NCBI RefSeq assembly: GCF_032854445.1
Contig: NC_088304.1
Location: forward strand, 30,263,732 to 30,327,731
DNA length: 64,000 nucleotides
Direction of reading: 5' to 3'
Source: Liolophura sinensis
Lineage: Eukaryota > Mollusca > Polyplacophora > Chitonida > Chitonidae
The translations under genes and the position numbers were made by a program. This document shows, piece after piece, positions 11,661 through 46,554 of this stretch; within the stretch, counting starts at the first letter, position 1; every line of letters begins with the position of its first letter. The notes below the pieces were generated by a model. The model searched no databases, was not told where the DNA came from, and saw nothing but the letters and a program-made list of their open reading frames with translations.

Positions 11661-12150
11661 GGTCTCTTCAATTCTTAGTTGTTGAGCAACTCAGTCGTTG
11701 AAAGAAAGTTCTTAATCACTGGATATACAAACAAACCAAACGTTTCCTAAGCTCTGAGCTTGTGGAGGTTTTCTTTCACAATGACGAATAACATTCAGTT
11801 TGAAGCATTAGGTACTCGATTACCTAACTCATGCTATAGGTATATTTTTACCATCTTAGGTCATATTTTTAGTATACCTTTTTGTATGTTCATTGGAGAC
11901 TGAATACAACAAGGAGACTACCTTAACATATAGTTATGAAAGATATGGACACATTCACACAAAACAGTCATAACTGTAACTTATGAGCACAATGGAGTAA
12001 GTGTTCAATACCCGATGTGTTATATATACACTTCTTCACTTCCTCAATTATGAATGGCCCTTCGCCTGAAACTATTGCCCTGCTTTGTGGAAGCCAATCA
12101 GTTTTATAGTCGTGTGGTGAGTGACTTTCTCAGGGTTTATCATAGCAATT
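11661..12150. other. Upstream region of the minus-strand TLR; nothing specific recognised
   Basis: Half a kilobase of AT-rich sequence upstream of the TLR start. It would contain the promoter and 5' UTR of that gene when it was active. I see no similarity to the upstream sequence of the intact TLR at 48490-48682 and cannot place a TATA box or a splice site reliably. Confidence 0.3.
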
Positions 12151-23770: not shown

Positions 23771-23874
23771 AGTAGTATATTAGACTTTTGGGCAACAGGT
23801 TGCACCTGATTTCGGAGCTCTTTCAAGTATTCACGTCAATTTAAGGTCAGGCAACAACCTCAAGGGTTCATAGA

Positions 23875-26087
23875 ATGTTGCTTACCTATATTTGTAGTGG
23901 TCCTGGTACTGATCAGAACTGATGAGCGCCACGTTGACCTACCTTATTGTAGATTGCAGACGGTACCAAGCAACATTCGTCATTAACAGAAAGTTTAAAA
24001 TTAAATTGGAATCTCTTGAGAACCATAACCAATTATGCCTTCATCAACCTGAGCTCTCTGACGGCCTTGGATCTGTCCGGTAACCGACTACAAAACCTAC
24101 AACCATGGGCTTTCAGAGGATTGCCAAAGCTCTTGTCTCTCAATCTGAACGATAACAATCTTCAATTAACCTAGGAAGCCTATCCTCCTAATGTCTTTCG
24201 ACCACTTCAGCGGTTAGAGACGCTCAAGGTAATCTACAAAGCTAACACTGATAGGAAAGACTTTTCAAATTGACATTCAGATCTGTGGCACTGCTTGTCA
24301 TTAATGGTATTAGTGTGCAACCTTTTAGACGGGGGTTTTCAATCATGTCCCAGCTTATGCTATTGCAGGTGTACTTAAGGAAGTAAGATACACCGAATGA
24401 AACGTTTGCTGTTTTCGGAAGCTTATCAATTAAGTCGTTACAAGTTGAGTGTGCAAAACTTGAAATAGGCAGTTTGAAACAATTCCCTCACATGAAAAGT
24501 TTAAAGATCAAAACTGATGGATTAAATCATGCATTATCTGCACTTGCCGACGTTTGCTACAGGAAGTTTACATATCTTTCCTTGTGTTACTGTAATGTCA
24601 ATATATACAGCCGTCCGAATCCAGATAATTTAATCATCACACGAAATAAGGTTGCCCTCTCTTGCAACCTTATGTGTTCAAGACCTAGATCTTAGTAAGA
24701 ATTATATTATCCGCTTGGATATTATAGCCATGTTTAAACTTAACTATCCAGAATGTTACGAAAGGGCGAACATTGGAGAAAATTATTTAGTTATAGCAAC
24801 TCACGTATTAATATGTGTATGTTTCCTGAGATTTACAAACCTCAATTTTCTAAACATCAGCCTTGGGAAAAGGTCAGTATGCCAGTCAGTAAGCCATTGT
24901 CCCTTGCAGCTAAACAGGGCCTGCTTAGTACCGCAGATACATTGCACCTAACAATTCCCTTTCTACCGTCACTGCAAACTGAATTCTAGCTGGTAGTAGT
25001 GAGTTCTCAAGAAATAATGTTACATTTAAAAACGCAGACAAACTTCGAAATGTCGACTTGGCATTCACCAAATGCACATGGCGTTGACTTCCGCTCTATT
25101 AAAAACTTAAAATCCCTTCACCTATCGAGCAACGTTTTAACAACGCTGCACAAGGAATTGTTTAAGCCACTTCTCAGGCTCGAAGTCTTGATCCTCAGAA
25201 ACAATAAGTTAACCGTAATTCCCTTGGCTCTCTTCAACATTAAGCCTCTGCCGTATTTGGATTTAACAGTCAGTGTTCTTTCCTCATTTTCCGAAGAAGA
25301 AAGGCAGTGGATCACTTCTACAACTTCTTTGGAAGGACAAGAGTCGGTGATTCTGTCTCTGAGTAATAACTCCTTCCTCTGTATCTGTAACACGCTGCCG
25401 TTTGTCCATTGAGTTTTAGCAAATTCTAACAATATCCTCGATCATGAAAGCCTGTCATGCAGTATGGAAAATGGAACAGTGGCAAATACAATGAGCCGGA
25501 AGTCAAAGGTAAAGGAAATGGATGTCTGCTGCGTCAGCAAGTTTTGGTTGACATGTTCTGTTGTTGGATCCTGTTTGTTAACTCTCTGTGTAATCTTGGC
25601 AATACTGGGTTATCGTTACAAATGGAAGATAAGGTACTTGATTAGGCCAGATGTCGTAGAGGTCCTGTATATGACGAATTGGCCATGGAACATTATCAAT
25701 ATGACGCCTTTGTGGCCTACAATTTCCAGAACTACCAGTGGCACTACCAGTGGTAATCTACGTTTTACGAAACGTTTTGGAAACTGAGAACAATTACAAA
25801 CTTTGCCTCCATGATCGTGATTTCCCTGTAGGTGTCAGCATACAACAGAATATTGTAGACGCCGTGAACAACAGCCGGAAAGTCATCCTGGTGATCACCA
25901 GAGCCTTTCTGAGAAGCGACTGATGTGAGTTTGAAATTCAAATGGCGGGCATGCGCATGATGAGAGACGGTCGTGAGGACGCCATTATTGTGATCATGAT
26001 GGACGAGATCCGGGTGGCCGAAATGCCAAGGTCGTTACTAAATTTGTGGAAACACATTACTTTTCTCGTGTTTTCTCACGCCCTTAA
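23875..26087 (+). pseudogene. Toll-like receptor pseudogene, many frameshifts and stops
   Basis: Homologous to the intact TLR over its whole length. It starts with a recognisable but frameshifted signal-peptide region (23875). LRR stretches are preserved in pieces (24060-24130; 24474-24695; 24652-24951; 24999-25412 with 'LEVLILRNNKLTVIPLALF'). The LRR cap ('FLCICNTLPFVH') is followed by TGA where the paralogue has a sense codon. The membrane segment 'FWLTCSVVGSCLLTLCVILA' (25530-25600) and TIR pieces (25738-25923: 'KLCLHDRDFPVGVSIQQNI') follow. Trp of 'SDWCEFE' is now TGA (25921-25923). Near 26070 about 55 bp of the final coding sequence is deleted, joining 'cttttctcgtg' to 'cacgccc' and the stop at 26085. 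Non-functional. Confidence 0.93.
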
Positions 26088-27021
26088 ACATGAACAGCAA
26101 TTATCCTTTTGTTAATTTTGTTCGTATATCATGGTGTTCTGAGTTGCAGTGGATAACGTTTGCTGGGCGTACATTGTTTTAAAATGTGATAATATAAAAT
26201 GCTTTAGAAGGTCTTGTACATGTGGAGCTATGAGAAATATGATCACAGCATATGCTGAACTCCCTAAATCATGGGGTATGTTTGATGTTATATCGTTGCT
26301 GAATCAGTGGTAACAGATTACTTATGTGGAGCGATGAGAAATATGATAAGAGCATATGCCGAACTCCCTAATGCATAGCGTGTGTATGTTTAATGTCATA
26401 GCGTTGCTGAATCAGTGGTAACGTTACTTATCTGGAGCTATGAGAAATATGATCACAGCATATGCTGAACTCCCTAAATCATGGGGTATGTATGTTTAAT
26501 ATGATATTGTTATTGAATCAGTGGTAACAGAATACTTATGAGCAAACTGACGAAAAGATTTTCAAAACAAAAAGGCTTCAGCAGGTGCTGGAACGCCCTC
26601 AGACAAGACAGTATTGCTATGTGTAGGCACGCTTTTTTCTGGAACATTTTCTTTTGTTCTAAAACTTACAACCTCGGAAACGTGTTTTCCACTTTATTCA
26701 CCCCCCAAGCTTTCGCTACTATCAGTAATGCCAAATGCATACCGGTATGTCAGTAAGGCATCTTGAAGACTTTCAACATAATTCTACCGTGTATGACAGT
26801 TCACTTACTGCGCCTATTTTTGTGTTGGGTCTTGTTTCTCACAGTTTGCACTCTGTATTTAGTGTTTGCGCTTAACTAAAATACATCACCAACAGTTTAG
26901 TAGGTGGTTACATCACACAGTAATGAATTGGGTTCTGTTGCCCGCGGAAGTATTTGTAAATTTGTAAGAGTAATTTGGTTATACACCGCGCCGTGGCCTG
27001 AAATACACACTGCAGCTCTTA
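26088..27021 (+). repeat. TLR 3' flank module (copy with 3 satellite monomers)
   Basis: Matches the flank of the intact TLR (51113-51930). It contains 'ttgttctgagttgcagtgg', three monomers of the 108-bp satellite (about 26210-26535) and a relic of the TIR end ('gagcaaactgacgaaaagat', 26538). 'ctcagacaagacagtattgc', 'gcataccggtatgtcagtaa' and 'tacaccgcgccgtggcctga' follow. No gene in it; the 72-aa ORF at 26538 is within this repeat. Confidence 0.8.
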
Positions 27022-27099
27022 TTTTCATGTGAGGAAATGAGCAAACGAGGGAAGGGATTTTCTGGGATCGACTCCTAGAAGTAATGGCACGCCCTTAAA
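27022..27099 (+). pseudogene. TLR 3'-end fragment
   Basis: Encodes a corrupted 'FS C(E)EMSKRGKGFSGIDS' equivalent of the last TIR residues, followed by 'gaagtaatggcacgccctta', identical to the end of the TLR coding sequence. It is the missing end of a TLR copy whose body is absent, standing in front of the satellite array. Confidence 0.85.
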
Positions 27100-28320
27100 C
27101 ATGAACACCAATTATCCTTTTGTCAGTTTTGTTCGTATATCATGTTGTTCTGAGCTACAGTGAATAACGTGCGCTGGGCGAAGATTGTTTTAAAATATGA
27201 TAATATAAAATGCTTTAGAAGTTTTTGTACATATGGAGATATCAGAAATATGATCACAGCATATGCTGAACTCCCTAAATCATGGGGTGTGTATGTTTGA
27301 TGTTATATCATTGCTGAATCCGTGGTCAGAGATTACTTATGTGGAGCGATGAGAAACATGATCAGAGCATATGCCGAACTCTCTAAACCTTGGGGTGTGT
27401 ATGTTTAATCTTATACCATTGCTGAATCAGTGGTCAGAGATTACTTATGTGGAGCGATGAGAAACATGATCAGAGCATATGCCGAACTCTCTAAATCTTG
27501 GGGTGTGTATGTTTAATCTTTTACCATTGCTGAATCAGTGGTCAGAGATTACTTATGTGGAGCTATGAGAAATATGATCACTGCATATGCTGAGCTCCTA
27601 AATCATGGGGTAAGTATGTTTAATGTCATAGCGTTGCTGAATTAGTGGTAACAGATTACTTATGTGGAGCGATGAAAAACATGATCACAGCATATGCTGA
27701 ACTTCTAAATCATGGGGTAAGTATGTTTAATGTCATAGCGTTGCTGAATTAGTGGTAACAGATTACTTATGTGGAGCGATGAGAAACATGATCACAGCAT
27801 ATGCTGAACTCATTAAATCATGGGGTAAGTATGTTTAATGTCATAGCGTTGCTGAATTAGTGGTAACAGATTACTTATGTGGAGCGATGAGAAACATGAT
27901 CACAGCATATGCTGAACTCCGTAAATCATGAGGTAAGTATGTTTAATGTCATAGCGTTGCTGAATTAGTGGTAACAGATTACTTATGTGGAGCGATGAGA
28001 AACATGATCACAGCATATGCTGAACTCCCTAAATCATGGGGTAAGTATGTTTAATGTCATAGCGTGGCTGAATTAGTAGTAACAGATTACTTATGTGGAG
28101 CGATGAGAAACCCGATCACAGCATATGCTGAACTCCCTAAATCATGGGGTAAGTATGTTTAATGTCATAGCGTTGCTGAATTAGTGGTAACAGATTACTT
28201 ATGTGGAGCGATGAGAAACATGATCACAGCATATGCTGAACTCCCTAAATCATGGGGTAAGTATGTTTAATGTCATAGCGTTGCTGAATTAGTGGTAACA
28301 GATTACTTATGTGGAGCGAT

Positions 28321-29178
28321 GAGAAACATGATCACAGCATATGCTGAACTTCTAAATCATGGGGTAAGTATGTTTAATATCATATCGTTGCTGAATCAGT
28401 GGTAACAGATTACTTATGTGGAGCGATGAGAAACATGATCACAGCATATGCTGAACTCTTAAATGATATGGTAAGTATGTTTAATATCATATCGTTGCTG
28501 AATTAGTGGTAACAGATTACTTATGTGGAGCGATGAGAAACATGACCACAGCATATGCTGAACTCCCTAAATCATGGGGTAAGTATGTTTAATTATATAT
28601 CGTTGCTAAATCAGTGGTAACAGATTACTTATGTGGAGCGATGAGAAACATGATCACAGCATATGCTGAACTCTTGAATCATGGGGTAAGTATGTTTAAT
28701 ATCATATCGTTGCAGAATCAGTGGTAACAGATTACTTATGTGGAGCGATGAGAAACATGATCACAGCATATGCTGAACTTCTAAATCATGGGGTAAGTAT
28801 GTTTAATATCATATCGTTGCTGAATCAGTGGTAACAGATTACTTATGTGGAGCGATGAGAAACATGATCACAGCATATGCTGAACTCTTAAATGATATGG
28901 TAAGTATGTTTAATATCATATCGTTGCTGAATTAGTGGTAACAGATTACTTATGTGGAGCGATGAGAAACATGACCACAGCATATGCTGAACTCCCTAAA
29001 TCATGGGGTAAGTATGTTTAATTATATATCGTTGCTAAATCAGTGGTAACAGATTACTTATGTGGAGCGATGAGAAACATGATCACAGCATATGCTGAAC
29101 TCTTGAATCATGGGGTAAGTATGTTTAATATCATATCGTTGCAGAATCAGTGGTAACAGATTACTTATGTGGAGCGAT
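28321..29178 (+). repeat. Higher-order repeat: two 429-bp four-monomer blocks
   Basis: The blocks differ from other monomers by shared variants in order: 'gaacttctaaatc', 'gaactcttaaatgatatgg', 'catgaccacag ... ttaattatatatcg', 'gaactcttgaatc ... gttgcagaatc'. All four variants recur in the same order in the second block, which is diagnostic of a block duplication. Confidence 0.92.
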
Positions 29179-29297
29179 GAGAAACATGATCACAGCATAT
29201 GCGGAACTCCCAAAATCATAGGGTATGTACGTTTAATGTTATATCGTTGCTAAATCAGTGGTAACACATTACTTATGTGGAGCTTTGAGAAACATGA

Positions 29298-29310
29298 TCA
29301 CAGCATATGC
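29298..29310 (+). repeat. Left target-site duplication of the LINE block
   Basis: TCACAGCATATGC here and TCACACCATATGC at 41701-41713 (12 of 13 identical) flank the entire LINE array. Both lie inside satellite monomers. Confidence 0.75.
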
Positions 29311-30426
29311 CTCCGTGGGGTTTCTGGGGTGATAAAAATAGGACCTCAGCCCTCTAGGCAAGCTTGTAAAAGTCGACTAACCTAGAGCTCTCCTGTGTGA
29401 GCCCGGTGAATATAATAGGCTCACATCTTCCCGGTTGTGTGAGAAGCAACTGGGGAGCGACCTGGGTTGCGACCCGTAATCTCGTGAGGACGGCCCCCGT
29501 GGGGTTTCCGGGGTGATAAGAATATGACTTCAGCCCTATAGGCAAGCTTGTCGTAAAAGTCGACTAACCTAGAGCTCTCCTGTGTGAGCCCGGTGAATAC
29601 AATAGGCTCACATCTTCTCGGTTGTGTGAGAGGCAACCGGGGAGCGACCTGTTTGCCGTGGGTTGCGACCCGTAATCTCCGATTTTTTTTTTTTTTTTTT
29701 TTTTTGATTGGTGTTTTACGCCGTACTCAAGAATATTTCACTTATACGACGGCGGCCAGCATTATGGTGGGTGGAAACCGGGCAGAGCCCGGGGGAAACC
29801 CACGACCATCCGCAGGTTGCTAGCAGACCTTCCCACGTACGGCCGGAGAGGAAGGCAGCATGAGCTGGTCTTGAACTCACAGCGACCGCATTGGTGAGAG
29901 GCTTCTGGGTCATTACGCTGCGCTAGCGCGCTAACCGACTGAGCCACGGAGGCCCCCGTAATCTCCGAGGACGGGATCCTGGTGGCTGAAGGTGGGTTGG
30001 TCTTGCGAGATCCTCACGCCCAACACGTCACTTTGACCCTTACTTGGAGTGAGACGGGAGGTCGGATGGGCCCAGTCCGATGAATCGGCTTGGTGATGTC
30101 TTGCCTCTGCGTCATCCCAAAGTTTTCTCTATAACATTCATAAGAGAATAAATGATACATTTTAACTTTCCTTTGAGGGATTACGTTTAAGGCGGTGGCT
30201 CATGGGTCAATCGAGTAGTACGTGTCTAATGGGTGACCTTATTCACTTGGTGGGAGAGAGAAGCTTGTGGTGGGGTTTGCTCATTGAGGCCATTTATTCG
30301 AGTATACCTCATGTGGAGTCCTTGGTGTGGTGTCCTGCTGGATCTCCGCAGGTTCAGGCATCGCCCTTGTTGGCACTCCGTGGTGGGTGGGGAACACATG
30401 GGGTGAATTGTTACAAAATATATACC
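29311..30426 (+). promoter_or_regulatory. LINE A 5' UTR with tandem partial repeat and nested SINE
   Basis: The first UTR segment (29311-29491: 'cctccgtggggtttctgggg', 'acatcttcccggttgtgtga') is followed by a second start of the same UTR (29492 onward). A SINE splits the second one at 29683. UTRs of this family are expected to carry the internal promoter. The repeated 5' segment may reflect addition of an extra promoter unit or a truncated older copy. The same UTR occurs at 22313, 63838 and (minus strand) 17515. Confidence 0.75.
29683..29954 (-). mobile_element. SINE inserted in LINE A 5' UTR, perfect 14-bp target-site duplication
   Basis: A 272-bp full-length copy, reverse orientation, with an uninterrupted 23-base poly(T) tail at 29683-29705 instead of the (TTTA)n of other copies. 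CCCGTAATCTCCGA at 29669-29682 recurs at 29955-29968. The pure tail and perfect duplication indicate a young insertion, later than LINE A itself. Confidence 0.95.
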
Positions 30427-31799
30427 ATGTCATCTTTAAATATTTCTCAAAATGTTTCTCAAAATGTTTCTAATGTGTCTATCAGATCCTCCTCTGGGAC
30501 CACTGCAAGTACCGACAAAAAGGGGAGGTTGGAGGTTTTGTCGGACTCGCTTGACAAATGTGATAGACCGGACAGTTGGCCGGCTTTTATTGTTCTCTCA
30601 ACAAAGAAGGGCTAGCCTCTAAACTTCATCCTTTTCTATTAAAACGGGCTCTTCAGGGTGTAGCTGGGACCTTAAAAAACGTAAAAAAGCTGAGATCCGG
30701 AGACATTCTCATTGAATGTTTCCGCCAACAACAATCAGTCAATTTATTATCTTTGAAAAAAATTTCAGACATACCAGTGTTTACATCCCCTCACAGTTCC
30801 CTCAACAATTGTCGGGAAATAATTCGTGACCGGGATCAAGATATTTTGGAACATTTGGAAGAAGAAATCTGCGACGAATTAAAATCACAGGGTGTTATCA
30901 GAGTGAAGCGCTTCACCACGAAGAAAGCTGGTAATATCCTTAAACTAAATACATAACTGCTGACTTTTAATAGTACCTCTCTTCCATCGTACATCTACAT
31001 TGGTCCGTATAGGGTTAGTGTAGATTTATATATCCCAAACCAAACCCGCTGTTTTACTTGCCAAAAATTTGGTCACGGCAAGGGCCAGTGTAAAAATAAA
31101 CTGGTTTGTTTTCGATGCGGCAGTGAGGGTCATGATGGTTTTGACTGCAGCAGCACATTTAAGTGCTGCAATTGCAGAGGAGATCACATGGCCTCCTCTA
31201 AGGACTGTCCGCTTTTTCCTAAGGAAAAGCTAATAATGAATTTAAAATCCAAAAACAATATATCTTATCAGGAGGCCCGTACGCTGGCCTCTCTTTCTAA
31301 TACTTCACTGCAATCTTCGTTTGCCAATGTGGTCAAGCGAGTAGCATCTGTTGCTACTCAAACTTCAATGACTTGGCCCATTGCAAACGACAAACCTAGT
31401 TTTACTTCAATGTCACTTCCGGCTCACCCTGCGCTTCATTCCAGCTCAACCCAGACAACTGCAGTACAGGAAAGAAAACCAGTAAATAATCCATATCAAA
31501 CTGAAAAACCTGAACCTAATCAATCCAAAACAAAAACTCCCAAAACCAAGTCCGGAAATAAATCTCAAAATGATCATAACAAACCTAGTCGCCCCACAGA
31601 GCGTCCCCCTAAAGCCACTAGGGACCTTATCCAAACTTATAATAGGTTTGGATCATTGGAGGACGTTGGTCCTTCAACATCAGATGCGGATGTGATGGAT
31701 ACATCACCCGCACCAGGGAGATCTAACAGCCGATCTCCACGGAAGGGTCGTCCACGGTCCAAACATAAAGATAAATCCCCCATACGCCTCCCCCCATAA
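30427..31799 (+). pseudogene. LINE A ORF1 (gag-like, three zinc knuckles), disrupted
   Basis: Starts MSSLNISQNVSQNVSNVSI at 30427. It is frameshifted near 30610 (a few bases lost relative to LINE B), continues as 'KNVKKLRSGDILIECFRQQQ', meets TAA at 30954 (TAC in LINE B), and stays in frame to 31799. The RNA-binding part (about 31050-31210) has CFTCQKFGHGKGQC, CFRCGSEGHDGFDC and CCNCRGDHMASSKDC, i.e. three intact CCHC-type knuckles. A Ser/Lys/Pro-rich tail follows ('SPRKGRPRSKHKDKSPIRLP'). The protein would package element RNA. The stop codon overlaps the ORF2 start as TAATG. Confidence 0.88.
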
Positions 31800-34700
31800 T
31801 GTATTCTTTAGACAAAATTATACAGTGGAATTGTCGAGGTCTTAAGGTTAATTTTATTGAAATAACACAGCTAGTTCAATTACTAAATCCTATTGCCTTT
31901 TGTCTTCAGGAAACTCACCTGAAGACATCTGACAAAGATAAAATAACTCTTAAAAATTATTCATTATCTTGTACTTATTCAAATGAGAGCGAGCTGCAGG
32001 CGGCTCCTCGAGCTTTATCAATAACAATATTATCCACAGCCCTATTGCTCTGCATACAGAGCTTGAGGCTGTGGCTGTCTGTGTTTCATTGTCTGAAACA
32101 ATCACATTATGTTCAGTGTATATTCCTCCTAACATTTCTTTGTCAGCTTTACAGTTACATAAATTAAAAGAACAATTGCCAAAACCTTTTATAATAATGG
32201 GAGATTTTAATTCCCATAACCCCCTTTGGGGCAGAAATACCATAAATAATAAGGGCAAGATAGTCGAAGACTTCTTATCGAAGGAGGAACTGTGTTATTT
32301 CAATGATGGTTTACACCTATTTACATCCGGGTAATGACACTTATTCTACTATCGAACTCACTATCACGGATCCATCACTTCTCCTTGATTTTTCTTGGAA
32401 GGTGCATGACGATCTTTGTGGTAGTGACCATTTTCCTATAATCCTAGAGCATATCACTTCTAATTCTTTAGAACGTGTAGGTAGGTGGAAATTCGATAAA
32501 GCAGATTGGATCGCATTTGAGATGTTTTGTGAGGCTGATATCACCTCAGAAGCTCTCAGTGTAGTAGATGATCCTATATTAAAATTTAATGAGCTTGTTT
32601 TACAAGCGGCTGACAGAACTATCCCTAAGACCTCGACGAATCCAAAATCCAAAAGTAAACCCTGGTATGATCAGGACTGTCGCAAAGCCATTAAGGACCG
32701 CAAAAAGGCCGAGCGAAATTTTAATATATGTCCTACTGATAATAACTTAAACCAGGTTCGTATTTTTAGAGCTAAGGCTCGTCGACTACTCAAGTCCAAG
32801 AGACGATCTTGTTGGCGGAACTTTATTTCGGGCATTACGTCAAACACACCCATGCGTAAGGTCTGGAACATGGTTCAGAAACTTAAGGGCAAAACTAATA
32901 AAGCAAAAGTCCAGCATTTAAAAGATTGAGATAATATATTAACTTCTCCACCCGATATAGCTAATAAACTAGCTGAAACAATTTCAAACAAATCCTCTTC
33001 TGAGAACTATACTAAAGAATTCCAACGTATTAAAAACCAGAAGGAGAAAATTAAATTGTCCTTCTCTTCTAAGAATTTAGAAGATTATAATCATCCTTTT
33101 AATATCGGTGAACTTAAAACTGCATTAAAAAAGGCCCACGATACTGCTTGTGGTCCTGATAATGTATATTATAAGTTTCTGAATCATTTACCACCTGAGT
33201 CACTGGAGACTCTCTTGGACTTGCTTAATGATATTTGGATAACCGGTAATTTTCCACCATCATGGAGGGAGGCGTGTATTATCCCGGTCCCTAAACCGGG
33301 TAAGGATCATACTGATCCAAATAATTACCGTCCCATAGCTCTTACCAGCTGTGTCTGTAAGACTATGGAACGGATGATTAATGATAGACTTGTTTGGTTT
33401 CTTGAAACCAACAGGCTTTTATCTAACATTTAATGTGGTTTTCGTCAAGGTCGATCTCCTTTAGATCACCTTGTTCGGTTCGAAACCTTTATTCGCGACG
33501 GCTTCATCAATAATGAACATGTGGTGTCCATATTTTTTGACCTTGAAAAGGCCTACGACACCACATGGAAATATGGTATTTTAAAAGATCTCGCGAATAT
33601 GGGTCTTAAAGGTCGATTACCTATATTTATATCCGAATTTTTGGCTGATCGTCAGTTTAAGGTACGGGTGGGTTCCGTACTCTTATGAGCAGGAAATGGG
33701 TATACCCCAGGGCAGCATTCTATCACCAACTCTGTTTAGCATAAAAATAAATAGCCTAGCAAAAACATTAACATCTGGCACAGAGGGTTCTTTATACGTC
33801 GATGATTTCCTTATATGCTACCGAGCTAAGAACATCAATAATATCGAACGTCAGTTGCAGCTTTGTCTCAATAAGATCGAGAAATGGGCAACTGAAAACG
33901 GTTTTAGATTTTCAACGTCTAAAACCGTCGGTATGCATTTTTGTAACAAACGGAAACTTCATATTGACCCTGAGTTTAATTTTTGTGGTAAACAGGTTAA
34001 AATTGTTGGAGAAACCAAATTTTTTAGGTATAATATTTGATAGTAAGCTATCTTTTATACCTCATATAAAAATGCTTAAAGCTAAATGTACAAAGGCTCT
34101 CGATATAATTAAGGTCGTGTCTAGCACCGATTGGGGTGCTGACCGATCAGTTTTACTTAATTTATATCGTTCTCTGGTGAGGTCTAAATTGGACTATGGA
34201 TCCATCATTTACGGTTCCGCGAGGAAGTCGTACATTAAAATGTTGGATCCTGTTCATCACCAAGGTTTGAGGCTCAGCCCTGGTGCTTTTAGAACCTCAC
34301 CAGTAGAAAGTTTGTACGTGGAGGCAAATGAACTTTCTTTATATATCCGACGTATAAAACTGAGCCTTCAATATGCTACAAAGCTTAAAGCACATCCAAC
34401 AAACCCTGCCTACGACTGTGTTTTCAATCCATTGTATGTAGACAAATATACTAAATGTCCTAACAAGATCCCTTCGTTCGGTCTTCGCATACAGGACCAT
34501 ATTGTGGGAGCTAACATCAAGCTGGAAGATATAGCTCCGGTGTCTTTTCCGGAATCTCCTCCATGGCTTCTCCCACAACCAAAACTAATATTTGATCTAC
34601 GTAAATGTAATAAATCGAATATAAATCCTCTTATAATTCTGCAAGGTTTTGCTGAAATTAAAGCTAATTATATGGATTATAAATTTATATATACTGACGG

Positions 34701-35481
34701 GTTCAAGAATGGGGACAGGGTTGCGACTGCGGCTGTCTTAGAGCAGCGGGTCTCTTCCTTTCGTCTTCCATCCTCTTCTTCAATATTCTCTGCCGAGGCC
34801 AGAGCTATACTCCTGGCCTTAACATATGTTTCTTCTGGGTGTGCCCAGAGGGCAATGATATGCACTGACTCGTTGTCTTGCTTATTGGCAATACAGAATA
34901 ATAAATTTAAAAATCCCTTGATCCTTCAAATTTTAGCTATACATAGGAAATTAATTAGAAGAGGTAAAGATATTATATTCTGCTGGATACCAAGTCATAT
35001 TGGTATCCATGGAAACACAGTCGCAGACAGGGAGGCGAAAACTGCCCTAAATAAACCCATATCTAAGATAAAAATCCCTTATACTGACGTGAAGTCCAAT
35101 ATTCTTAAATATATTCGTGGCCTTTGGCAGGGTGAATGGAACTTGCAGGCCCATAATAAACTGCATGCTATTCATCCGGTCATCGGCTATAATTCATATA
35201 CACTTAATATGTCTCGTAGAGACCAAGTCGTTTTAACGAGATGCCGTATTGGACATTCTCATCTGACACACAATTTCATCTTGGATGGGAGCAGTGCTCC
35301 CGAGTGTGTTGGATGTGATGCTCAATATGGCATCAAACATATTCTGGTTGACTGTGTAGACTTTGCCCATGTTCGGCAGAGATTCTACACGGTCAACTCT
35401 ATATATGATTTATTTGACAGCATTGCTGGCGATGTTGTCATAAATTATTTGAAGGCCATTGGCCTATATCATAAAATATAA
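31799..35481 (+). pseudogene. LINE A ORF2: endonuclease, reverse transcriptase, RNase H; disrupted
   Basis: The endonuclease begins 'IIQWNCRGLKVNFIEITQLV' (31814) and includes 'IIMGDFNSHNPLWGRN' (32195) and 'GSDHFPIILEHI' (32422). RT begins near 33056 and includes 'VPKPGKDHTDPNNYRPIAL', 'IFFDLEKAYDTTWKYG', 'IPQGSILSPTLFSI' and the catalytic SLYVDDFLICY (33793). RNase H has 'IYTDGFKNGDRVATAA', 'AEARAILLAL', 'MICTDSLSCLLAI' and 'IPSHIGIHGNTVADREAK', keeping all four acidic residues. The C-terminus has C-x2-C...H...C ('ECVGCDAQYGIKHILVDC'). Defects: frameshifts near 31995, 32315, 33685 and 34023, TGA at 32927 and TAA at 33430. The last 480 codons (from about 34025) are one open frame. Confidence 0.92.
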
Positions 35482-35742
35482 ATTTTAATTGTCATAAATA
35501 TCTATAGATAAACAGTTATATATATATATACATGTACTATAACCCTGGTTTTTGAGTTTTAAATCTTATTTTTCTTTTATTCGATTTTAATCACGTCTGT
35601 ACTTTTTGTTTTACTTTTGGTGTTCATATTATCATATCGAAAACCTTAACCGTCTCTTGCTTTCACCTTGTTCTCGCCACGGTATGGCTGAAATATTGCC
35701 GATGTGGCGTTAGGCCATAATCATTCATTCATTCATTCATTC

Positions 35743-36265
35743 TCGTAGAGACCAAGTCGTTTTAACGAGATGCCGTATTGGACATTCTCGTCTAACACAC
35801 AATTTCATCTTGGATGGGAGCAGTCCTCCCGAGTGTGTTGGATGCGATGCTCAATATGACATCAAACATATTCTGGTTGACTGTGTAGACCTTGCCCATG
35901 TTCGGCAAAGATTCTACACAGTCAAATCTATATATGATTTATTTGACAGCATCGCTGGCGATGTTGTCATAAATTATTTGAAGGTCATTGGCCTGTATCA
36001 TAAAATATAAAATTTAATTGTCATAAATATCTAAAGATAAACAGTTATATACATATAGAATATAACCCTGGTTTTCGAGTTTTAACTCTTATTTTTCTTC
36101 TATGTGATTTTAAACATGTCTGTACTTTTTTTTTGCTTTTCATGTTCATATCATATCGAAATCCTTAACCGTCTCGCGTTTTCACCTTGTTCTCGCCACG
36201 ATATGGCTGAAATATTGCCGATGTGGGGTTAAGCCATAATCATTTATTCATTCATTCATTCATTC
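35743..36265 (+). mobile_element. LINE A': 5'-truncated copy (last 520 bp of the family)
   Basis: Starts 'tcgtagagaccaagtcgttt' immediately after the (ATTC)n tail of LINE A and repeats the sequence from 35213 to the 3' end with a few changes (Tyr to Asp at 'QYDIKHI', Ala to Val near the end). It carries its own 3' UTR and (CATT)n tail. A classical 5'-truncated insertion into the tail of LINE A. Confidence 0.92.
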
Positions 36266-36678
36266 GTGAGGACGGGATCCTGGTGGCTGAGGGCGTGTCG
36301 GTCATGCGAGATCCTCACGCCCAACACTTTGGCCCTTACTTGGAGAGAGACGGGAGGTCGGATGGGCCCGGTCCGATCAATCGGCTTGGTCATGCCTTGC
36401 CTCTGCGTGGTCTCAAGCCCCTCTATAACAGCACATCATTTAGCGAACAAATGTTATTTCTGACATATCGTTTGCGGGACTGCGCTTTGAGGCGGTGGCT
36501 CAAAGGGTCAATCGAGTAGATTGAATTTAACCTTTGGTATAAATCAATCTGTTCGACCATACCTCACAGGGAATCCTTGGTGCCTTTCCTGCTGGGTATT
36601 CCCAGGTTCAGGCATCGCCCTTGTTGGCACTCCGTGGTGGGTGAGAAACATATGGGGTGAAATTTATATATACATACC

Positions 36679-38022
36679 ATGTCTGCCGTACAATTTTCAT
36701 CAAATGTTTCTAATATATCTAATAGATTTTCCTCTCAGCCGACTTCGCCTTCAAGTGCTGATAAAAAGAGGAAGTTGTCTGACTCACTGGATAATGAACA
36801 GAGCAGTTGGCCGGCTTTCATTGTTCTCTCAACTAAGAGTGAACAAAAGCCGGCTTCAAAAATTCATCCGTTTCTACTGCAAAGGTCTTTTCAGGGTGCA
36901 GCTGGAACTCATAAAAACGTTAAAAAAACTTAGATCCGGAGACATTCTCATTGAGTGTTTCCGGCAACAACAGTCAAAAAATTTACTTAAATTAAATAAA
37001 ATATCTGACATATCTGTTTTCACGTCCCCTCGCCATTCCCTGAACAACTGTTAGGGAGTCATTCGTAACAGGGATGGTGATATAACTGACCTGACTGAGG
37101 AAGAAATTTGCCAAGAACTAAATTCACAGGGTGTTACCAGAGTGAAACGCTTCATTACGAAGAAATCTGGTAACTTCTTTAAACTTAATACATACCTGCT
37201 TCCCTTTAACACTACCTCCCTTCCGTCTCATATCCACGTTGGCCCGTATAGGGTTAATGTGGATTTATATATCCCCAATCCTACATGTTGTTTTAATTCC
37301 CAAAGATTTGGTCATGTCAAGGGACAATGTAAGAACAAACTCATTTGCTTCAGATGCGGCAGTGAAGGGCATGATGGTTTCGACTACAGTAACACAGTTA
37401 AGTGTTGCAACTGCAGTGGAGATCACATGGCCTCCTCAAGGGACTGTCCGCTTTTCCTTAAGGAAAAACAAATTATCAACTTGAAAATTAAAAACAATAT
37501 CTCCTATCAGGACGCCCGAAAATTAGCCTCACTTTCTAATACTTCTCTACCGACTTTGTTTACCAATGTGGTCAAGCGAGTAGCAACTGTTGCTACTCTT
37601 GGACTTGGCCCATTGGAAACGACAAACCTAGTTATGTTTCTGTGCAACTTCCGTCTCAACCTTCATTTAATTCTTCCTCAACTCAAACTCCTTCAAAAGA
37701 ACAAATAAAATCAGCAAATAGTATAGAACACCCTGGTAAACCAGCTGAGCCCAATTGCCCTAAAAATGACAAAAATAAGTCCAAAAGTCAATCTCAAAAT
37801 AGTAATAAAATAACTAATAAAGCTAGTGGCCCCACAGAGCGTCCCTCTAAAGCCACTAGGTATCCTATCCAAACTTTTAATAAGTTTGGATCGTTGGAGG
37901 AAGTTGGTCCTTTAACATCAGATGCGGAGGTGATGGATATATCACCCGCACCAGGGAGATCTTCCAGCCGATGTCCTCGGCCCAAACATAAAGCAAAATC
38001 TCCTATACTTCTCAATCCATAA
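36679..38022 (+). pseudogene. LINE B ORF1 (gag-like), disrupted
   Basis: Starts MSAVQFSSNVSNISNRFSS. An extra A in a run near 36925 shifts the frame ('NVKKT*' against 'NVKKLRSGDIL'). A TAG at 37052 and a frameshift near 37600 follow. Two zinc ligands are also lost: the first knuckle reads C-F-N-S (Cys to Ser) and the second ends in Tyr (GFDY). The protein would be non-functional even if frames were read through. It ends ...SPILLNP with TAATG overlapping ORF2. Confidence 0.88.
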
Positions 38023-41000
38023 TGGCGATATATGACAAAATTATACAGTGGAATTGTCGAGGCCTAAAGGTAAATTTTATTGAAATAACACAGCTTGTCC
38101 AATCATTAAATCCTATTGTCTTGTGTCTTCAGGAAACTAACGTTAAGACATATGACAAAGATAAAAAAAATTCTTAAGAATTACTCATTATACAGTACTT
38201 ACTAACGAAGAACTGTGTTATTTCAATGATGGTTCTAATACCTATTTACATCGGTGTAATGACGCTTATTCTGCTATCAGCCTCACTATCACAGATCCAT
38301 TACTTCTCCCGGATTTTTCTTGGAAGGTGCATGACGATCTTTGTGGTAGTGACCATTTTCCTATAATCCTAGAGCATATAACTTCTAATTCTTTAGAACG
38401 TGTAGGTAGGTGGAAATTCGATAAAGCAGATTGGATCGCATTTGAGACGTTTTGTGAGGCTGATATCACCTCAGAGACTCTGAATGCAGCAGATGATCGT
38501 ATGTAAAAATTTAATGAGCTTGTTTTAGAAGCCGCTGACAGAACTATCCCTAAGACCTAGAAATCCAAAACCCCAAAGTAAACACTGGTACGACAATGAC
38601 TGTCGCAAAGCCATTAAGGACCGCAAAAACGCCGAGCGAAATTTTAATATATGTCCTACTGATAATAACTTAAATCAGGTTCGTAATTTTACAGCTAAAG
38701 CTCGTCGATTAATCAAGTCCAAGAGACGATCTTGTTGGTGGAACTTTGTTTCAGGCATTACGTCATAAACACCCATGATTGGTTCAGAAACTCAAGGGCA
38801 AAACTAATAAAGCAAAACTATAGCATTTAAAAGATGGAGATAATATATTAACCTCTCCATCTCATATAGCCAACAAATTTTCTGAGACAATTTCCAAAAA
38901 ATCTTCTTCGGAAAATTGTACGAAAAAATTCCAATATATTAAAAACCAGAAGGAGAAAATTAAATTGTCCTTTTCTTCTAAGAATTTAGAAGATTATAAT
39001 TGTCCGTTTTATATCGAGGAACTTAAAACTGCATTAAAAAAGGCCCACGATACTGCTTGTGGTCCTGATAAAGTATATTATAAGTTTCTGAACCATTTAC
39101 CACCTGAGCCACTGGAGACTCTCTTGGACTTGCTTAATGATATTTGGATAACTGGTAATTTTTCACCATCATGGAGGGAGGCGTGTTTTATCCCGGTCCC
39201 TAAACCGGGTAAGGATCATACTGATCCAAATAATTACCGTCCCATAGCTCTTACCAGCTGTGTCTGTAAGACTATAGAACGGATGATTCATGGTAGACTT
39301 GTTTGGTTTCTTGAAACCAACAAGTTACTTTCTAATATTCAATGCGGTTTTCGTCAAGGTAGATCCACTATGGATCACCCTGTTCGATTCGAAGCCTTTA
39401 TTCGCGATGGATTCATCAATAACGAACATGTGGTGTCCACATTTGTTGACCTTGAAAAGGCCTATGACACTACATGGAAATATGGTATTTTAAAAGATCT
39501 CGCGTATATGGGACTTAAAGGTCGATTACCTATATTTATATCTAAATTTTTATCCGATCGTCAGTTTAAGGTACGGGTGGGGTCCACTCTTTCTGAATCT
39601 TAAGAAAAGGAAATTTGCATACCCCAGGGCAGCATTCTATCACCAACTCTGTTTAACATAAAAATAAATAGCCTAGCCATAACATTAACATCGGGCACAG
39701 AGGGTTCTTTATATGTTGATGATTTCGTTGCATGCTACCGAGTTAAGAATATGAATAATATCGAACGTCAGTTGCAGCTTTGTCTCAATAAGATCGAGAA
39801 ATGGGCAACTGAAAACGGTTTTAGATTTTCAACGTCTAAAACCGTCGGTATGCATTTTTGTAATAAACGGAAACTTCATCTTGATCCTGAGCTTAATTTT
39901 TGTGGTGAACAGATTAAAATTGTTGGAGAAACTAAATTTTTAGGTATAATATTTGGTAGTAAGCTATCTTTAGACCTCATATTAAAATGCTTAAAGCTAA
40001 ATGTACAAAGGCTCTCGAAATAATTAAGGTCGTGTCTAGCACGGGGTGCTGACCGATAAGTTTTACTTATTTTATATCGTTCTCTGGTGAGGTCTAAATT
40101 GGACTATGGGTCCATCATTTACGGTTCCGCTGAGAAGTATATTAAAGTGTTGGATCCTGTTCATCACCAAGGTTTGAGGCTCAGCCTTGGTGGTTTTAGA
40201 GCCTCACCAGTAGAAAGTTTATACGTGGAGGGTAATGAGCCTTCTTTACACAACCGACGTATAAAACTGAGCCTTCAATATGCTACAAAGCTTAAAGCTC
40301 ATCCAACAAACTCTGCCTACGACTGTGTTTTCAATCCATATATGTAGACAAATATACTAAATGCCCTACAAGATTCCTTTCGTTCGGTCTTCGCATACCG
40401 GACCATATTGTGGGTGCTAACATCAAGCTGGAAGATATAGCTCCGGTGTCTTTTCCGGAATCTCCTCCATGGCTTCTCCCACAACCTAAACTAGTATTTT
40501 ATCTACGTAAATATAATAAATCATATACAAATTCCCTTATAATTATACTTATAATTATATATGTTTTATAATTAAACTTATAATCTCTTATAAGTTTTGC
40601 TGAAATCAAGGCTCATTATATGGATTATAAATTTATATATACGGACGGGTCAAAGGATGGGGACAGGGTTGCGGCTGCGGCTGTCTTAGAGCAGAGGGTC
40701 ACTTCTCTTCGTCTGCCACCTTCATCTTCTATCTTTCTACAGACGCCAGGGCTATACTCCTGGCCTTATCATAAGTTTCCTGTGGGCATGCCCAGAGGGC
40801 AGTGATATGCAGCGACTCTCTGTCTTGTCTTTTGGCGATTCAGAATAATAAATTTAAAAATCCACTGATACTTGAGATAATAGCTAAACATCGAAAACTA
40901 ATCAAAAGAGGTAAAGATATTATATTCTGTTGGATACCAAGTCACACTGGTATCCATGGAAACACAGTCGTGGACAGGGAAGCGAAATCTGCCCTATATA

Positions 41001-41442
41001 AACCTGTATCTCGGGTTAAAGTCCCTTATACTGACGTGAAGTCTAATGTTCTTAAATATATTCGTCGCCTTTGCCGGGTGAATGCGACTTGCAGATCCAC
41101 AGTAAAGTGCATGCCATCCATCCTGCCATTGGCTACAATGCCTATACTTGTGAAAAGTCTCGCAGAGACCAAGTAGTTTTAACGAGTAGTCGTACTGGGC
41201 GTTCTCATCTAACACACAATTTGATCTTAGATGGGAGCAGTGCTCTCGAGTGTGTTGGATGTGATGCACAATATGACATCAAACATATCTTGGTTGACTG
41301 TGTAGACTTTGCCCATGTTAGGCAAACGTTCTACACAGTCATGTCTATATATGATTTATTTGACAGCATTGCTGGCGATGTTGTCATAAAATATTTGAAG
41401 GCTATTGGCCTATATCATAAAATATCAATTTCAATTGTCTGA
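38022..41442 (+). pseudogene. LINE B ORF2, endonuclease largely deleted
   Basis: Begins MAIYDKIIQWNCRGLKVNFI. After 'LYSTY' (38200) it jumps to 'NEELCYFNDGS', losing roughly 240 bp of endonuclease including the GDFN segment. RT is mostly intact (38965-39603, then 'SLYVDDFVACYRVKN' at 39700). Post-RT and RNase H are fragmented (39751-41176), with an AT-rich rearrangement at 40540-40590. The C-terminal zinc motif 'ECVGCDAQYDIKHILVDC' is present. Inactive. Confidence 0.9.
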
Positions 41443-41713
41443 AATATTTATAGATAAAAGTTGTATACACACAGCTTTTCAGATATACTATTTTTTAAAT
41501 ATGATGGTTTTCGAGTTTTAACTGTTTTGGTTTCTTCTTATCTGATTTTAAACATGTCTGTACTGTTTGTTTGATTTTTGATGTTCTCACCATTATTTCG
41601 AAAACCTTAACCGTCTCAGGTTTTCACCTTGTTCTCACCACGATATGGCTGAAATATTGCCGATGTGGCCTTAAGCCATAAACATTCATTCATTCATTCA
41701 TCACACCATATGC

Positions 41714-42115
41714 GGAACCCCTAAATCATGGGGTATGTATGTTTAATGTTATATCGTTGCTAATTCAGTAGTACGAGATTACTTATGTGGAGCTATGAGA
41801 AATATAATCAAAGCATATGCTGAACTCCCTAAATCATGGGGTATGGATGTTTAATGTTATATCGTTGCTAATTCAGTAGTACGAGATTACTTATGTGGAG
41901 CTACGAGAAATATAATCAAAGCATATGCTGAACTCCCTAAATCATGGGGTATGGATGTTTAATATCATATCGTTGCTAATTCAGTGGTAAGAGATTACTT
42001 ATGTGGAGCTATGAGAAATATAATCAAAGCATATGCTGAACTCCCTAAATCATGGGGTATGGATGTTTAATATCATATCGTTGCTAAATCAGTGGTAAGA
42101 GATTACTTATGAGCA
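41714..42115 (+). repeat. 108-bp satellite, right part of the split array (4 monomers)
   Basis: Monomers with 'ggtatgtatgtttaatgtta' / 'ggtatggatgtttaatatca' and 'tcaaagcatatgctgaactc'. They carry GTATGT/GTATGG where the main array has GTAAGT, so they represent an older or separate subfamily. They continue the array interrupted by the LINE block. Confidence 0.9.
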
Positions 42116-42471
42116 AAGTGACGAAAAGATTTTCTAAACAAAAAGTCTTCAGCAGGTGCCGGAATGCCCTCAGACAAGACGGTATTGCTACACTCTTTTT
42201 TGGAAACGTTTTATTGCGTTATTTAATTTACAACCTTGGAAATGTGTTTTTCGCTTCATACCCTCCATCCCGCCCCACGCCACGTTAATCGTTCGCTAAT
42301 GTCAATAATCCCAAAGGCATACCGGTATGTCAGTAAGGCACCTTGAAGGGTTTCAACATTTGATGTTTATCCTTACCTAAAATATATCAACAGGTTAGTA
42401 GGTGGTCACATGACCCAGTAATGAAATAGGTTTTGTTACTCGCGGAAGCATTTGTATGTTTGTAAGAGGAA

Positions 42472-42571
42472 ACACATTACTTTTCTCATGAGTGAAAATA
42501 AGGAAAAAAAAATAAGCGGACGAAGAGATTTTCTGGGATCGACTCCTAGAAGTAATGGCATGCCCTTAAAC
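42472..42571 (+). pseudogene. TLR 3'-end fragment
   Basis: 'ggaaacacattacttttctc' is followed by corrupted 'MSENKE', 'gattttctgggatcgactcc' and 'gaagtaatggcatgccctta'. It is the last about 33 codons of a TLR, including the box 3 region FxWDRL, frameshifted by an A-run. Confidence 0.88.
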
Positions 42572-42600
42572 ATGAACAGCAATTATCCTTCGTTATTTTT

Positions 42601-42683
42601 TGCGTCTCGGGTTTTCACCTTGTTCTCGCCACGATATGGCTGAAATATTGCTGATGTGGCGTTAAGCCATAATCATTCATTCA
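42601..42683 (+). mobile_element. Ultra-short LINE 3'-end insertion (83 bp) with 12-bp target-site duplication
   Basis: 'gttttcaccttgttctcgcc', 'gatatggctgaaatattgct' and an ATTC tail match the LINE family's 3' UTR. TTCGTTATTTTT occurs at 42589-42600 and 42684-42695. The corresponding flank of the intact TLR (51120 region) lacks the insertion. Confidence 0.9.
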
Positions 42684-43089
42684 TTCGTTATTTTTGTTCG
42701 TATATTATGTTGTTCTGAGTAGCAGTCGATAACGTGCGCTGAGCCTAGATTGTTTTAAAATGTGATGATATACAATGCTGTAAAAGGCCCTGTAGATGTG
42801 GTGGTATGTGAAATATTATTACAGCATATGCTGAACTCCCTAAATCAAGGGGTATGTACGTTTAATGTTATATCGTTGCTGAATCTGTGGTAACAGATTA
42901 CTTACGTGGAGCTATGTGAAATATGATCACATGCGGAAGCCCCTAAATCATGAGGTGTGTTTGTTTAATATTATATCGTTACTAAATCAGTGGTAACAGA
43001 TTACTTATGAGGAAACGGACGAAAAGATTTTCTAAACAAGCTTCAGCAAGTGCAGGCATGCCCTGAGACAAGAAAGTATTGGTATGTGT

Positions 43090-43828
43090 AGACACGCTTT
43101 TGATGAAACATTTTGTTTCGTTATTTAACTTACAATCTCAGTTTTTCTTTTCATCCCTCCGCCATCCCCTCCCCCTAATCCTTCGCTACTGTCAGTAATC
43201 CCAGACAAATTGATGTTATTCAGGCATTTTGAAGAGATTCAACATAATTTTACTTACCGTGTAGGACAGTTGATTTTTGGGCGTCTTTTTTGTGTTGGGT
43301 CTTGTTTCTGACAGTTTGCTCTCTGATGCATTTGATGTTATCCTTAACTAAAATACATCAACAACAGTTTAGTGGGTGGTCACGTGACGCAGTCATTAAT
43401 TGGGTTCTGTTTCCCGCGGACGCATTTGTATGTTTGTAAGAGCAATTTGGTTGTATACCGCGTCGTGACCCGAATAACACCTTGCAGCTCCGTGAAACGC
43501 CATGTTCAATACACCAGACAAACGCCACGTCCAACCACAGATAACCGGCCAGTATTTCGCCTGTCTTTTTTATTTGTCACTCGATCTGGCTGTATTTGTC
43601 GTTTTATGTGTTTCTGTTCCAACTGACACGCTATCACGCGGCCGAATTTCACCGGTTATTTGTGTCCATATAGCAAATATCATACAATCCAGTGGTAATA
43701 CTTCGGCAGTCGTGTGTAACTATGTGCCATTTATCACAAGAGCACGTGATAATATTTCACCTTATGAGAATATGTCCGAATCTCAATTGTCACACTGTAA
43801 TTTATACTTATTTTGCGGTTTATATTTA
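43090..43828 (+). repeat. Downstream TLR flank, duplicated block
   Basis: Includes 'tgttgggtcttgtttctgac', 'acatcaacaacagtttagtg' and, from about 43440 to 43790, sequence matching 51900-52250 ('accgcgtcgtgacc', 'ccagacaaacgcca', 'tttcaccggttat', 'agagcacgtgat'). ORFs 43372-43858 overlap this non-coding repeat and are not conserved in the other copy. Confidence 0.75.
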
Positions 43829-43989: not shown

Positions 43990-44985
43990 TCAGTACCTTG
44001 GTAGAAGCAAAATGTTTTCGTAATTATAACAAAAACGCCATTGCGGTATAAATTAACAGCAAAAAACGCCCCCACTTTCCCTGACACCTTGTTTTCGTCC
44101 AACCGAACGTTCTGAAGGGGCGTGACCTAATTCTGCACGAAACCATGCTGTGTTTTAGAGGGGGTGTTAAAATGCGATGCTAAATATTACGGACGTGCTT
44201 CACGACTAGAATGGAATAATAAAAAGAATACGTTTTTTTTTCGAAAACAATTCCGACTCTAAAATATAGCACAAATATAGCATATTGTCCTGCTTTAAGC
44301 TGAGACGCTGTTATCAGGGTGGGCTTCAGTAGGACAGGCACGGTGTCAAACAGTGACAAACACTGACAGTGAGCCCGGAGGTCGCTCGTTGCTGGCAGGT
44401 CAAAAGTTTTCCCAAACTCTGTCTGACAGAGCTAAAGGAGCTGGAAACCTCTGGCATCAGCAAAACGACAACAGAAGTGGGGAGTTCAACTGTGTAAACG
44501 TAATTAAAGTCTGAATAACGTACGAAAAAATAATAATTCAAACACACAAAATTAGGTTAACAATAGTTTGATACTGAATTTTATTTGGTTTACTTGTGTA
44601 AATGCTTTGCGGTCGTGTTTTATTCTGTATCAAATTCATAAACACTGGGTAACGAATGTTGGAATAATGGAACACTTCAGTTTACATTTTCGATTCAATA
44701 TTAATTTCTCAACATATGTTGATAAATAACAAAACAATAAAAACATGACAGATATGTGTTTATGCTTATTATAAGCAGGCAAATAAATATATTATAATTT
44801 ATATGTTGAAGGTATCATGAAAATAAATAGGATTTGCGTTTATTGTATTGTGAAATACAATGGATGGCTATCACAGTTTAAATTTGTAATGACGCAATCT
44901 GTACAAAGTTATATGTACATTAAACCAGCCCCCGTGCACGTGTTTCACTCAGTGCGCCGTACCAGTTACGTAAAATATACACGTC
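43990..44985. other. No gene recognised
   Basis: AT-rich kilobase between the inverted repeat and the recombinase fragment. A 73-aa minus-strand ORF (44326-44547) has no recognisable feature. Confidence 0.35.
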
Positions 44986-44989
44986 ACAC

Positions 44990-45720
44990 TCATGCATAAA
45001 GGTCACATGATGTACCAAATTTGAAGATCTGGGTCAACGGCAATTTATTGGCGGCAGTCAGACAATAGAGTTCGCAGAGAGAAAACATGAGCAAACGGAC
45101 TGAACATTGTGGGTAAAAAAACAACGGTTTAACTCGGATAAACATCAAACAAGAATTGGGAGTTGAAAAGGACGATCTGCAGTCAGTCTGCTTTCCAGAG
45201 GATGTGAAGTTGATGTGAACTCTGCTGTTATTTATTGTTGCATTGTTGAACAGCCCTCCAAAACTTTGAGGCGTGACTGAAAACTGGAATTTTGCCATTT
45301 GGATTGTATTGTCATTATTATGTGTAACATTACAGTCGACAACGTCGGGCATTTGCAGTGGGATTGGCGTGACTGACATGGGAGTATTTTCACTCAACGT
45401 CATTTTCACTTTCAACATTTTCTGATAACACACTTGAAGCATGCAGGATAATGCTGATTTCACGGCGTTTTGAAACGGACGGTTTGGGTGACATAACTCC
45501 CTACATTGGATTCATTGCGGTGGCCTGTCACAGACATAACGTCCATCACAGAAACCCTGAGATCAGCAAGAACTGTGGCTGTCGTAGCCCGGACGCAGTG
45601 ATTCGTGTACCGGCGGCTAAGTTTTGCATCGAGGGAAATATCAGACATTATTGATCCGATCTTTTTAAGACCCATTGGTTGATTACCATACCATGGTTTG
45701 TGGTCAACTGGGACGTTCAG
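44990..45720 (-). pseudogene. Crypton-like tyrosine recombinase, C-terminal fragment with frameshift
   Basis: Minus strand: 'WYGNQPMGLKKIGSIMSDIS' (from 45693), 'LSRRYTNHCVRATTATVL' and 'VMSVTGHRNESNVGSYV', then after a one-base frameshift near 45463 'AVKSALSCMLQ' and a tail with 'FGGLFNNATINNSRVHINF'. The spacing H-x-x-R ... G-H-x(8-9)-Y is that of tyrosine recombinases: His and Arg of the second catalytic group, a His third, and the nucleophile Tyr. W-Y-x-N-x-P-x-G, Y-T-N-H-x-x-R-A-T and the polar 'FxNATIxx...V.INF' tail are what I know from Crypton-derived proteins of molluscs and other invertebrates. The first catalytic Arg and the N-terminal part are absent. Alternative: a domesticated Crypton-type gene exon, but the frameshift argues against it. 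Confidence 0.7.
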
Positions 45721-46420: not shown

Positions 46421-46554
46421 CCCTAATCAACAGTGTTATTGTAATTAGTGTCAGTGATATCAGACGTATCCCCCTAATCAGAAGTAAAGTTGCCTCCATA
46501 GGTATAGTTGTAATAATTTGGAATCATTATGTATGCTTGGCTTTTAACGTCGCA

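Follow-up and report, generated by a model that had tools for sequence, protein, structure and literature searches.

A 108-bp tandem repeat behind TLR genes of the chiton Liolophura sinensis, apparently derived in part from TLR coding sequence

TLR genes and repeat blocks in the window

The window, by which we mean the whole 64-kb stretch of Liolophura sinensis DNA that was analysed (contig NC_088304.1, positions 30,263,732 to 30,327,731 of the forward strand; positions below are counted within the window unless another contig handle is given), contains on its plus strand an open Toll-like receptor (TLR) frame of 866 codons, stop to stop (48512-51112), in which an LRR ectodomain and a TIR domain are joined in one chain (Pfam matches LRR_8, 2.9e-24; TIR_2, 1e-14; TIR, 1.5e-12), the TIR match spanning residues 726-861. 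Behind this frame lies a series of elements that recurs elsewhere in the genome and that we call the cassette. The TLR tail is followed by a 3' flank, from the stop codon to the first monomer (51113-51240), that is common to the cassette copies, and by two monomers of a 108-bp tandem repeat (51241-51454; 51241-51442 as delimited by TRF), of which the last is continuous with a TLR-like relic. At 51452-51936, this relic, the first ~75 nt of which correspond to the TLR tail, is followed by ~430 nt of flank for which no source was detected. Relic and flank are found again, all on the plus strand, at 26538-27018, at 42109-42471 (with a deletion) and at 43007-43490.

The longest block of the repeat, 19.2 copies of a 108-bp unit, was delimited by TRF at 27244-29310 on the plus strand, as were the related smaller blocks at 26223-26539 and 41700-42111; two further monomers were identified by BLAST at 42810-43013. 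On this strand, a TLR pseudogene with frame changes (23870-26097) lies upstream of three monomers (26223-26540) that pass into relic and flank. The long array is headed by a TLR tail fragment (27022-27098) that begins at ORF nt 2525 and has its own 3' flank (27119-27232). An insertion (29311-41699) separates the long array from 3.8 monomers at 41700-42111, next to which stand relic and flank. A second TLR tail fragment (42468-42569), beginning at ORF nt 2510, follows with its 3' flank (42683-42798), two monomers (42809-43013) and, again, relic and flank.

On the minus strand, the window includes another TLR tail fragment (3981-4234) and a TLR at 9201-11690 that encodes a 69% identical protein with one TAA and whose 3' flank does not match the 3' flank of other members of the subfamily. 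Several tandem repeats of other kinds are also present: a similar 48-bp unit (CACACTGTCG..GCTGCTCTGG), distinct from the 108-bp repeat, at 934-1348 and 53387-53481; a 34-bp repeat with 99% matches at 58601-58736; and 48/96-bp repeats at 60527-61128. At gathering scores, Rfam gave no match within the 64-kb window.

A single array split by an insertion

The long block stops inside a monomer, at monomer position 23 (29310), and the block at 41700 resumes at position 10. The sequences that border the insertion, ATCACAGCATATGC and ATCACACCATATGC, differ at one of their 14 nt, and removal of one of these copies restores an in-phase monomer of 107 nt, with identities of 0.944 and 0.916 to two monomers at 41798-42013 and a mean identity of 0.892 to 18 monomers of the long block. 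The 12.4 kb between the blocks match RNase H once and reverse transcriptase twice, one of the latter matches falling below the Pfam cut-off. Given the in-phase junction, the 13/14-nt duplication and the reverse-transcriptase-bearing insert, the two blocks (27244-29310 and 41700-42111) form one array of ~23 copies that was interrupted when an insertion entered it, with duplication of the target site. The first-pass annotation, which was made from the letters of the window and derived the repeat from a TLR 3' end, was right in this core. Its statement that TIR codons follow every block does not hold for the block at 27244-29310, which ends mid-monomer against unrelated inserted sequence. The region 29311-41699 may be one element or several. 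Its left end carries 187-bp tandem repeats (29309-29651), and its right end is resembled by the end of a short insertion (42590-42690) that terminates in ATTC repeats and has copies of CGTTATTTTT on either side within a TLR 3' flank.

Resemblance of the repeat to TLR codons

The 3' part of the monomer is homologous to the plus-strand TLR codons at 51005-51035, which encode SLLNLWKHIT (residues 832-841). Reading the window directly, we find TCGTTACTGAATCTGTGG at 51005-51022, TCATTACTGAATCAGTGG at 51421-51438 and AGCAAACGGACG at both 51054 and 51455, exactly as these strings had been quoted. A single monomer consensus aligned with the whole TLR ORF scored 45 over 41 columns, a value that neither of two sets of 1000 shuffles reached (highest scores, 37 and 33; Gumbel p values, ~5e-6 and ~8e-7, respectively). 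The consensus of the last monomer and the post-array sequence scored 72 against the TLR-tail consensus, compared with a maximum of 37 in 1000 dinucleotide shuffles (p ~1e-11). This alignment consists of 31 nt (28 identical), a 15-nt loss and 27 nt (25 identical), with the TLR codon order kept; taken separately, the monomer part and the relic yield p values of ~1.5e-9 and ~4e-7. A further stretch of the relic, TGGAACGCCCTCAGACA, is weak by itself (49 of 1000 shuffles scored as high) and stands in the correct order.

In a scan of the array-masked window, divided into 428 tiles, the six highest scores (42, 42, 39, 32, 32 and 32; next, 28), each referring to a tile and not to a place within it, came from the tiles containing the window's four TLR tails, namely, those near 51 kb, 25 kb and, on the minus strand, 4 kb and 10 kb. 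Among 20 TLR tails compared with monomer plus relic, the subfamily and its nearest neighbour, six tails in all, scored 71, 71, 71, 67, 66.5 and 63, the genes at C10:6.7 Mb 37 and 35, and the tails on C11 and C12 29 (eight tails) and 36.5 (two tails); the 25k pseudogene, with its internal deletions, scored 38 and the diverged 4k fragment 47. The gradient is not strict because these two local tails are low and the two C12 tails at 36.5 exceed one of the C10:6.7-Mb tails (35). Short as the shared segment is (31-41 nt), the shuffles behind both scores, the 20-tail comparison and the masked scan all speak against a chance likeness between the repeat and TLR codons, and we consider the probability of such a coincidence negligible.

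These sequence comparisons support the view that TLR coding sequence supplied part of the 108-bp repeat, and the first-pass annotation was apparently correct in naming this source and in recognizing the relic behind the blocks as TLR codons in the right order. An alignment by itself has no direction, and one might imagine an older repeat from which the TLR took its last codons; the shared codons, however, are part of the Pfam TIR match and are seen again, with growing divergence, in the paralogs at C10:6.7 Mb and on C11 and C12, where the genome searches found no monomer, so we regard a transfer from repeat to gene as highly improbable.

The TLR-like share detected at first in every monomer stands at ~31-41 nt, about one third of the 108 bp; it does not extend to the whole monomer, 64 nt of which have no detected source, and 15 TLR nt are missing before the relic. 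The 64-nt part showed no excess over shuffles in alignment with the TLR-tail consensus (868 of 1000 as high), in anchored alignment with the TLR codons just upstream (844 of 1000), or in comparison with the region X of a repeat-free locus described below (423 of 1000). Both the 64-nt part and the ~430-nt flank scored within shuffles against the TLR loci at 51k and on C5 (both strands) and against window positions 44001-48511 (plus strand). With the ~430-nt flank behind the relic, shuffles did as well in 299 and 564 of 1000 cases against the TLR-tail consensus and in 15 to 60 of 60 against the loci and neighbouring sequence. With the remainder scoring within shuffles, the monomer is best described as a chimera, about one third TLR. 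Division of the monomer into an internal dimer was unsupported (score 14; 291 of 1000 shuffles as high), and derivation of its ATGTGG from TLR sequence after a 5-nt loss is ambiguous, since the TLR 3' flank, too, supplies ACATGTGGAGC. The TLR-derived frame of the repeat contains a TAA stop, as read from the sequence, which makes a coding use unlikely; most likely, the repeat is neutral non-coding DNA.

Distribution of the cassette in the genome

Genome-wide, there are at least 42 monomer matches, in four regions: one is the cluster in the window, with which a remnant at C10:30.342 Mb is counted, and the others lie at C5:9.396 Mb, C10:10.905 Mb and C10:0.124 Mb. A second monomer query found the same places, again as a lower bound. 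A 27-nt core of the non-TLR part, with up to 3 mismatches allowed, yielded 25 matches, all at known repeat loci (18 in the window, 6 on C5, 1 at 0.124 Mb and none at 10.905 or 30.342 Mb), compared with 0 for the control. In the searches that were run, the counts of which are lower bounds, the monomer was seen only at loci of one TLR subfamily or beside fragments of its 3' cassette, and the repeat was not found away from these, in agreement with the TLR-bound origin proposed for it at the outset.

A TLR tail with its 3' flank directly adjoins the left side of six of the nine blocks (26k, 27k, 43k, 51k, C5 and C10:10.905 Mb). The other three are the 41700 block, which is the right half of the split array; the 30.342-Mb block, in which the left edge is replaced by unrelated sequence and a TLR fragment lies 3.3 kb upstream; and the C10:0.124-Mb block, which has no TLR within 4.5 kb on its left side. 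On the right side, relic and flank accompany eight of the nine blocks (at 0.124 Mb with the relic partly deleted), the exception being the 27k block, that is, the left half of the array whose right half (41700) has both. A ninth copy of relic and flank, at C5:9.410 Mb, retains a few terminal monomer letters, beyond which the sequence is unrelated. The same 15-nt loss is present in seven of eight post-array sequences; in the eighth, that of C5, more sequence is deleted at this point.

The first-pass annotation spoke of a satellite. Satellite DNA is characterized by very high copy number in long arrays; here, we find tens of copies (as lower bounds) in short arrays beside genes. Head-to-tail units of ~10 to 100+ bp in a local array, at few loci genome-wide, are the marks of a minisatellite, and the 108-bp repeat looks like a local gene-derived minisatellite that arose by ordinary duplication steps and not like a satellite or a new kind of element.

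Copy number, edges and the TLR gene tree

In this one assembly, copy number differs between paralogous loci, with 1, 2, 3, 7 (the last partial) and ~23 monomers; the single-monomer state is found at locus L011 (C10:10.905 Mb). Within-array identity is 0.914 at 27k, 0.923 on C5 and 0.964 at 42k, compared with 0.871 between arrays, and within the short blocks it is 0.875 (26k), 0.844 (43k) and 0.851 (51k). Because the two-copy blocks (0.844 and 0.851) fall below the between-array value, only the longer arrays look homogenised. An exact duplication of 429 bp, comprising four monomers (28322-28750 and 28751-29179, 0 mismatches), is a recent block expansion.

Among eight representative monomers, the TLR-like part is slightly better conserved than the rest (mean column identity 0.916 vs 0.874). 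Together with the TLR tail fragments that begin inside or just after the shared segment (ORF nt 2510 and 2525), this would fit repeated gene conversion by TLR tails of an older, unrelated repeat in the 3' flank. Such conversion seems unlikely, given that the relic extends the TLR order past the monomer, as a truncated gene end would, and that the 15-nt loss is shared by seven of the eight post-array sequences, with the further deletion in that of C5.

The left edge of the repeat reads ACATG|TGGAGC at three of six loci, with variants at the other three, and the right edge reads TTATGAGCAAA at seven of nine loci. At L011, the edges ACATG|TGGAGC and TTATG|AGC share ATG exactly and GAGC loosely, whereas the published model considered below has repeats of 5-10 bp.

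Two TLR genes, at C10:30.353 and 30.333 Mb, have the coding sequence and the 3' flank up to ...GAGCTATG, followed by a region denoted X, and lack monomers, relic and flank. In a tree of 11 TLR coding sequences, this repeat-free pair joins the 25k pseudogene (96/96) within a five-gene group (100/100), outside which stands the repeat-bearing 51k gene, the six coming together with 84/86; two rows of the underlying alignment are under half filled, and the count of changes on this tree cannot separate gain from loss. The X-region tree does not fix where the repeat-free genes belong, and the 3'-flank tree does so weakly. Nested as they are inside a repeat-bearing clade, the two repeat-free loci look like losses, and one gain plus one loss is the simplest reading, provided that the root set by the outgroups is correct and that the topology is not distorted by gene conversion. 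L016 and L013/L030, once considered as a pre-insertion site, were dropped in view of the coding tree.

The two repeat-free loci lack exactly the monomers, relic and flank, and their sequence resumes at TTCAATAC, much as at an unoccupied site. Helitron-like elements that contain internal repeats are known from molluscs, and the cassette could be imagined as a mobile element, for example a non-autonomous Helitron carrying tandem repeats, that picked up part of a TLR and was inserted behind a TLR gene. However, each of the nine flank copies listed, a lower bound, belongs to a TLR-linked cassette or adjoins monomers or what remains of one, and none of them is dispersed to an unrelated site; the two outer edges have only ATG in common; and, for nested repeat-free loci, a deletion between ATG microhomologies is simpler. 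Accordingly, mobility of the cassette appears improbable to us.

A probable origin of the repeat

From the directly observed homology and codon order, cassette, single-copy state, edges, recent block duplication and split array, we arrive at the reading, with a probability of roughly 0.7, that the repeat is a gene-derived minisatellite in which a TLR 3' flank was fused to a truncated TLR tail and amplified between ATG-ending edges. The starting event, in the ancestry of a single TLR subfamily, would have been a fusion between the 3' flank of a TLR gene, from ~130 nt past the stop codon onward, and the truncated tail (last ~36 codons) of a TLR copy, either by partial tandem duplication or by deletion between tandem TLRs. 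The product would have been 108 nt made up of ~10 nt of TLR 3' flank, ~64 nt without a known source and 31-41 nt of TLR codons, with ACATG|TGGAGC as its left limit and TTATG|AGCAAAC as its right one. The first-pass annotation had the segment between two TIR blocks amplified; more precisely, the unit is delimited by an ATG in the TLR 3' flank and an ATG at the gap within the truncated TLR tail. Slippage or unequal exchange between these edges may have produced the first duplication, and further unequal exchange could account for growth to ~23 copies, including the recent duplication of the 429-bp block. Copying of the TLR genes would subsequently have carried the complete cassette along, from TLR tail and 3' flank through n monomers to relic and flank; the tree suggests its loss from two of these genes, and in the window one array was cut by the retroelement-bearing insertion. 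Against this reading, comparisons with TLR, 3'-flank and neighbouring sequence yielded no source for the 64 nt or the ~430-nt flank, and the searches turned up no ancestral locus in the unjoined state, both repeat-free TLR genes being nested in the repeat-bearing clade. Also on this side of the balance are the C10:0.124-Mb block with no TLR nearby, the edges with only ATG in exact agreement, the two-copy blocks without signs of homogenisation and the uneven gradient of TLR-tail scores.

Conceivably, the arrays and the TLR genes pair via their common tail codons, which would make the 3'-end cassette self-reinforcing, with TLR tails being partly duplicated and lost time and again. The shared segment spans ORF nt 2494-2524, and the tail fragment at 27022 begins immediately behind it (nt 2525), that at 42468 within it (nt 2510), as array-gene exchange would predict. 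We consider this extension doubtful; if it were true, an immune gene family would be feeding its own instability.

Comparison with known systems

The source of many tandem repeats is no longer visible. Here, the steps by which coding DNA gave rise to a repeat can be traced, because the source family, a single-copy locus, short and long arrays and apparent losses are all present in one genome. Among the open-licence papers listed in literature searches, we saw no report of a TLR-derived repeat. In coding-sequence macrosatellites, such as those of USP17 and DUX4, the tandem units hold whole reading frames. The present repeat likewise consists of tandem units with gene sequence and differs in that only a dead ~31-nt fragment is involved.

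In the model of Haber and Louis, a unique stretch with very short similar edges turns into a tandem array that grows by unequal exchange (PMC6947457). The present case is alike in that a short-edged stretch becomes an array, with L011 as the single-copy state. It differs in that the edges share only ATG exactly, along with a loose GAGC, and in that the seed is a chimera with TLR codons, whereas transposable elements are named as common seeds there. Satellite DNAs for which rDNA spacers or transposable elements served as seeds (PMC5615363) resemble the 108-bp repeat in having a non-satellite seed and in the joint copying of multi-monomer blocks; in our case, the seed includes immune-receptor coding sequence, and the copies number in the tens and are not dispersed. 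The nearest parallel that we have seen for repeats beside immune genes is that of the sea urchin Sp185/333 gene clusters, which are flanked by short tandem repeats, GA and GAT (PMC5103432). In both systems, tandem repeats flank a clustered, duplicating immune gene family; in the sea urchin these are simple repeats, whereas in L. sinensis, known from one assembly, the repeat is 108 bp long and comes in part from the gene itself.
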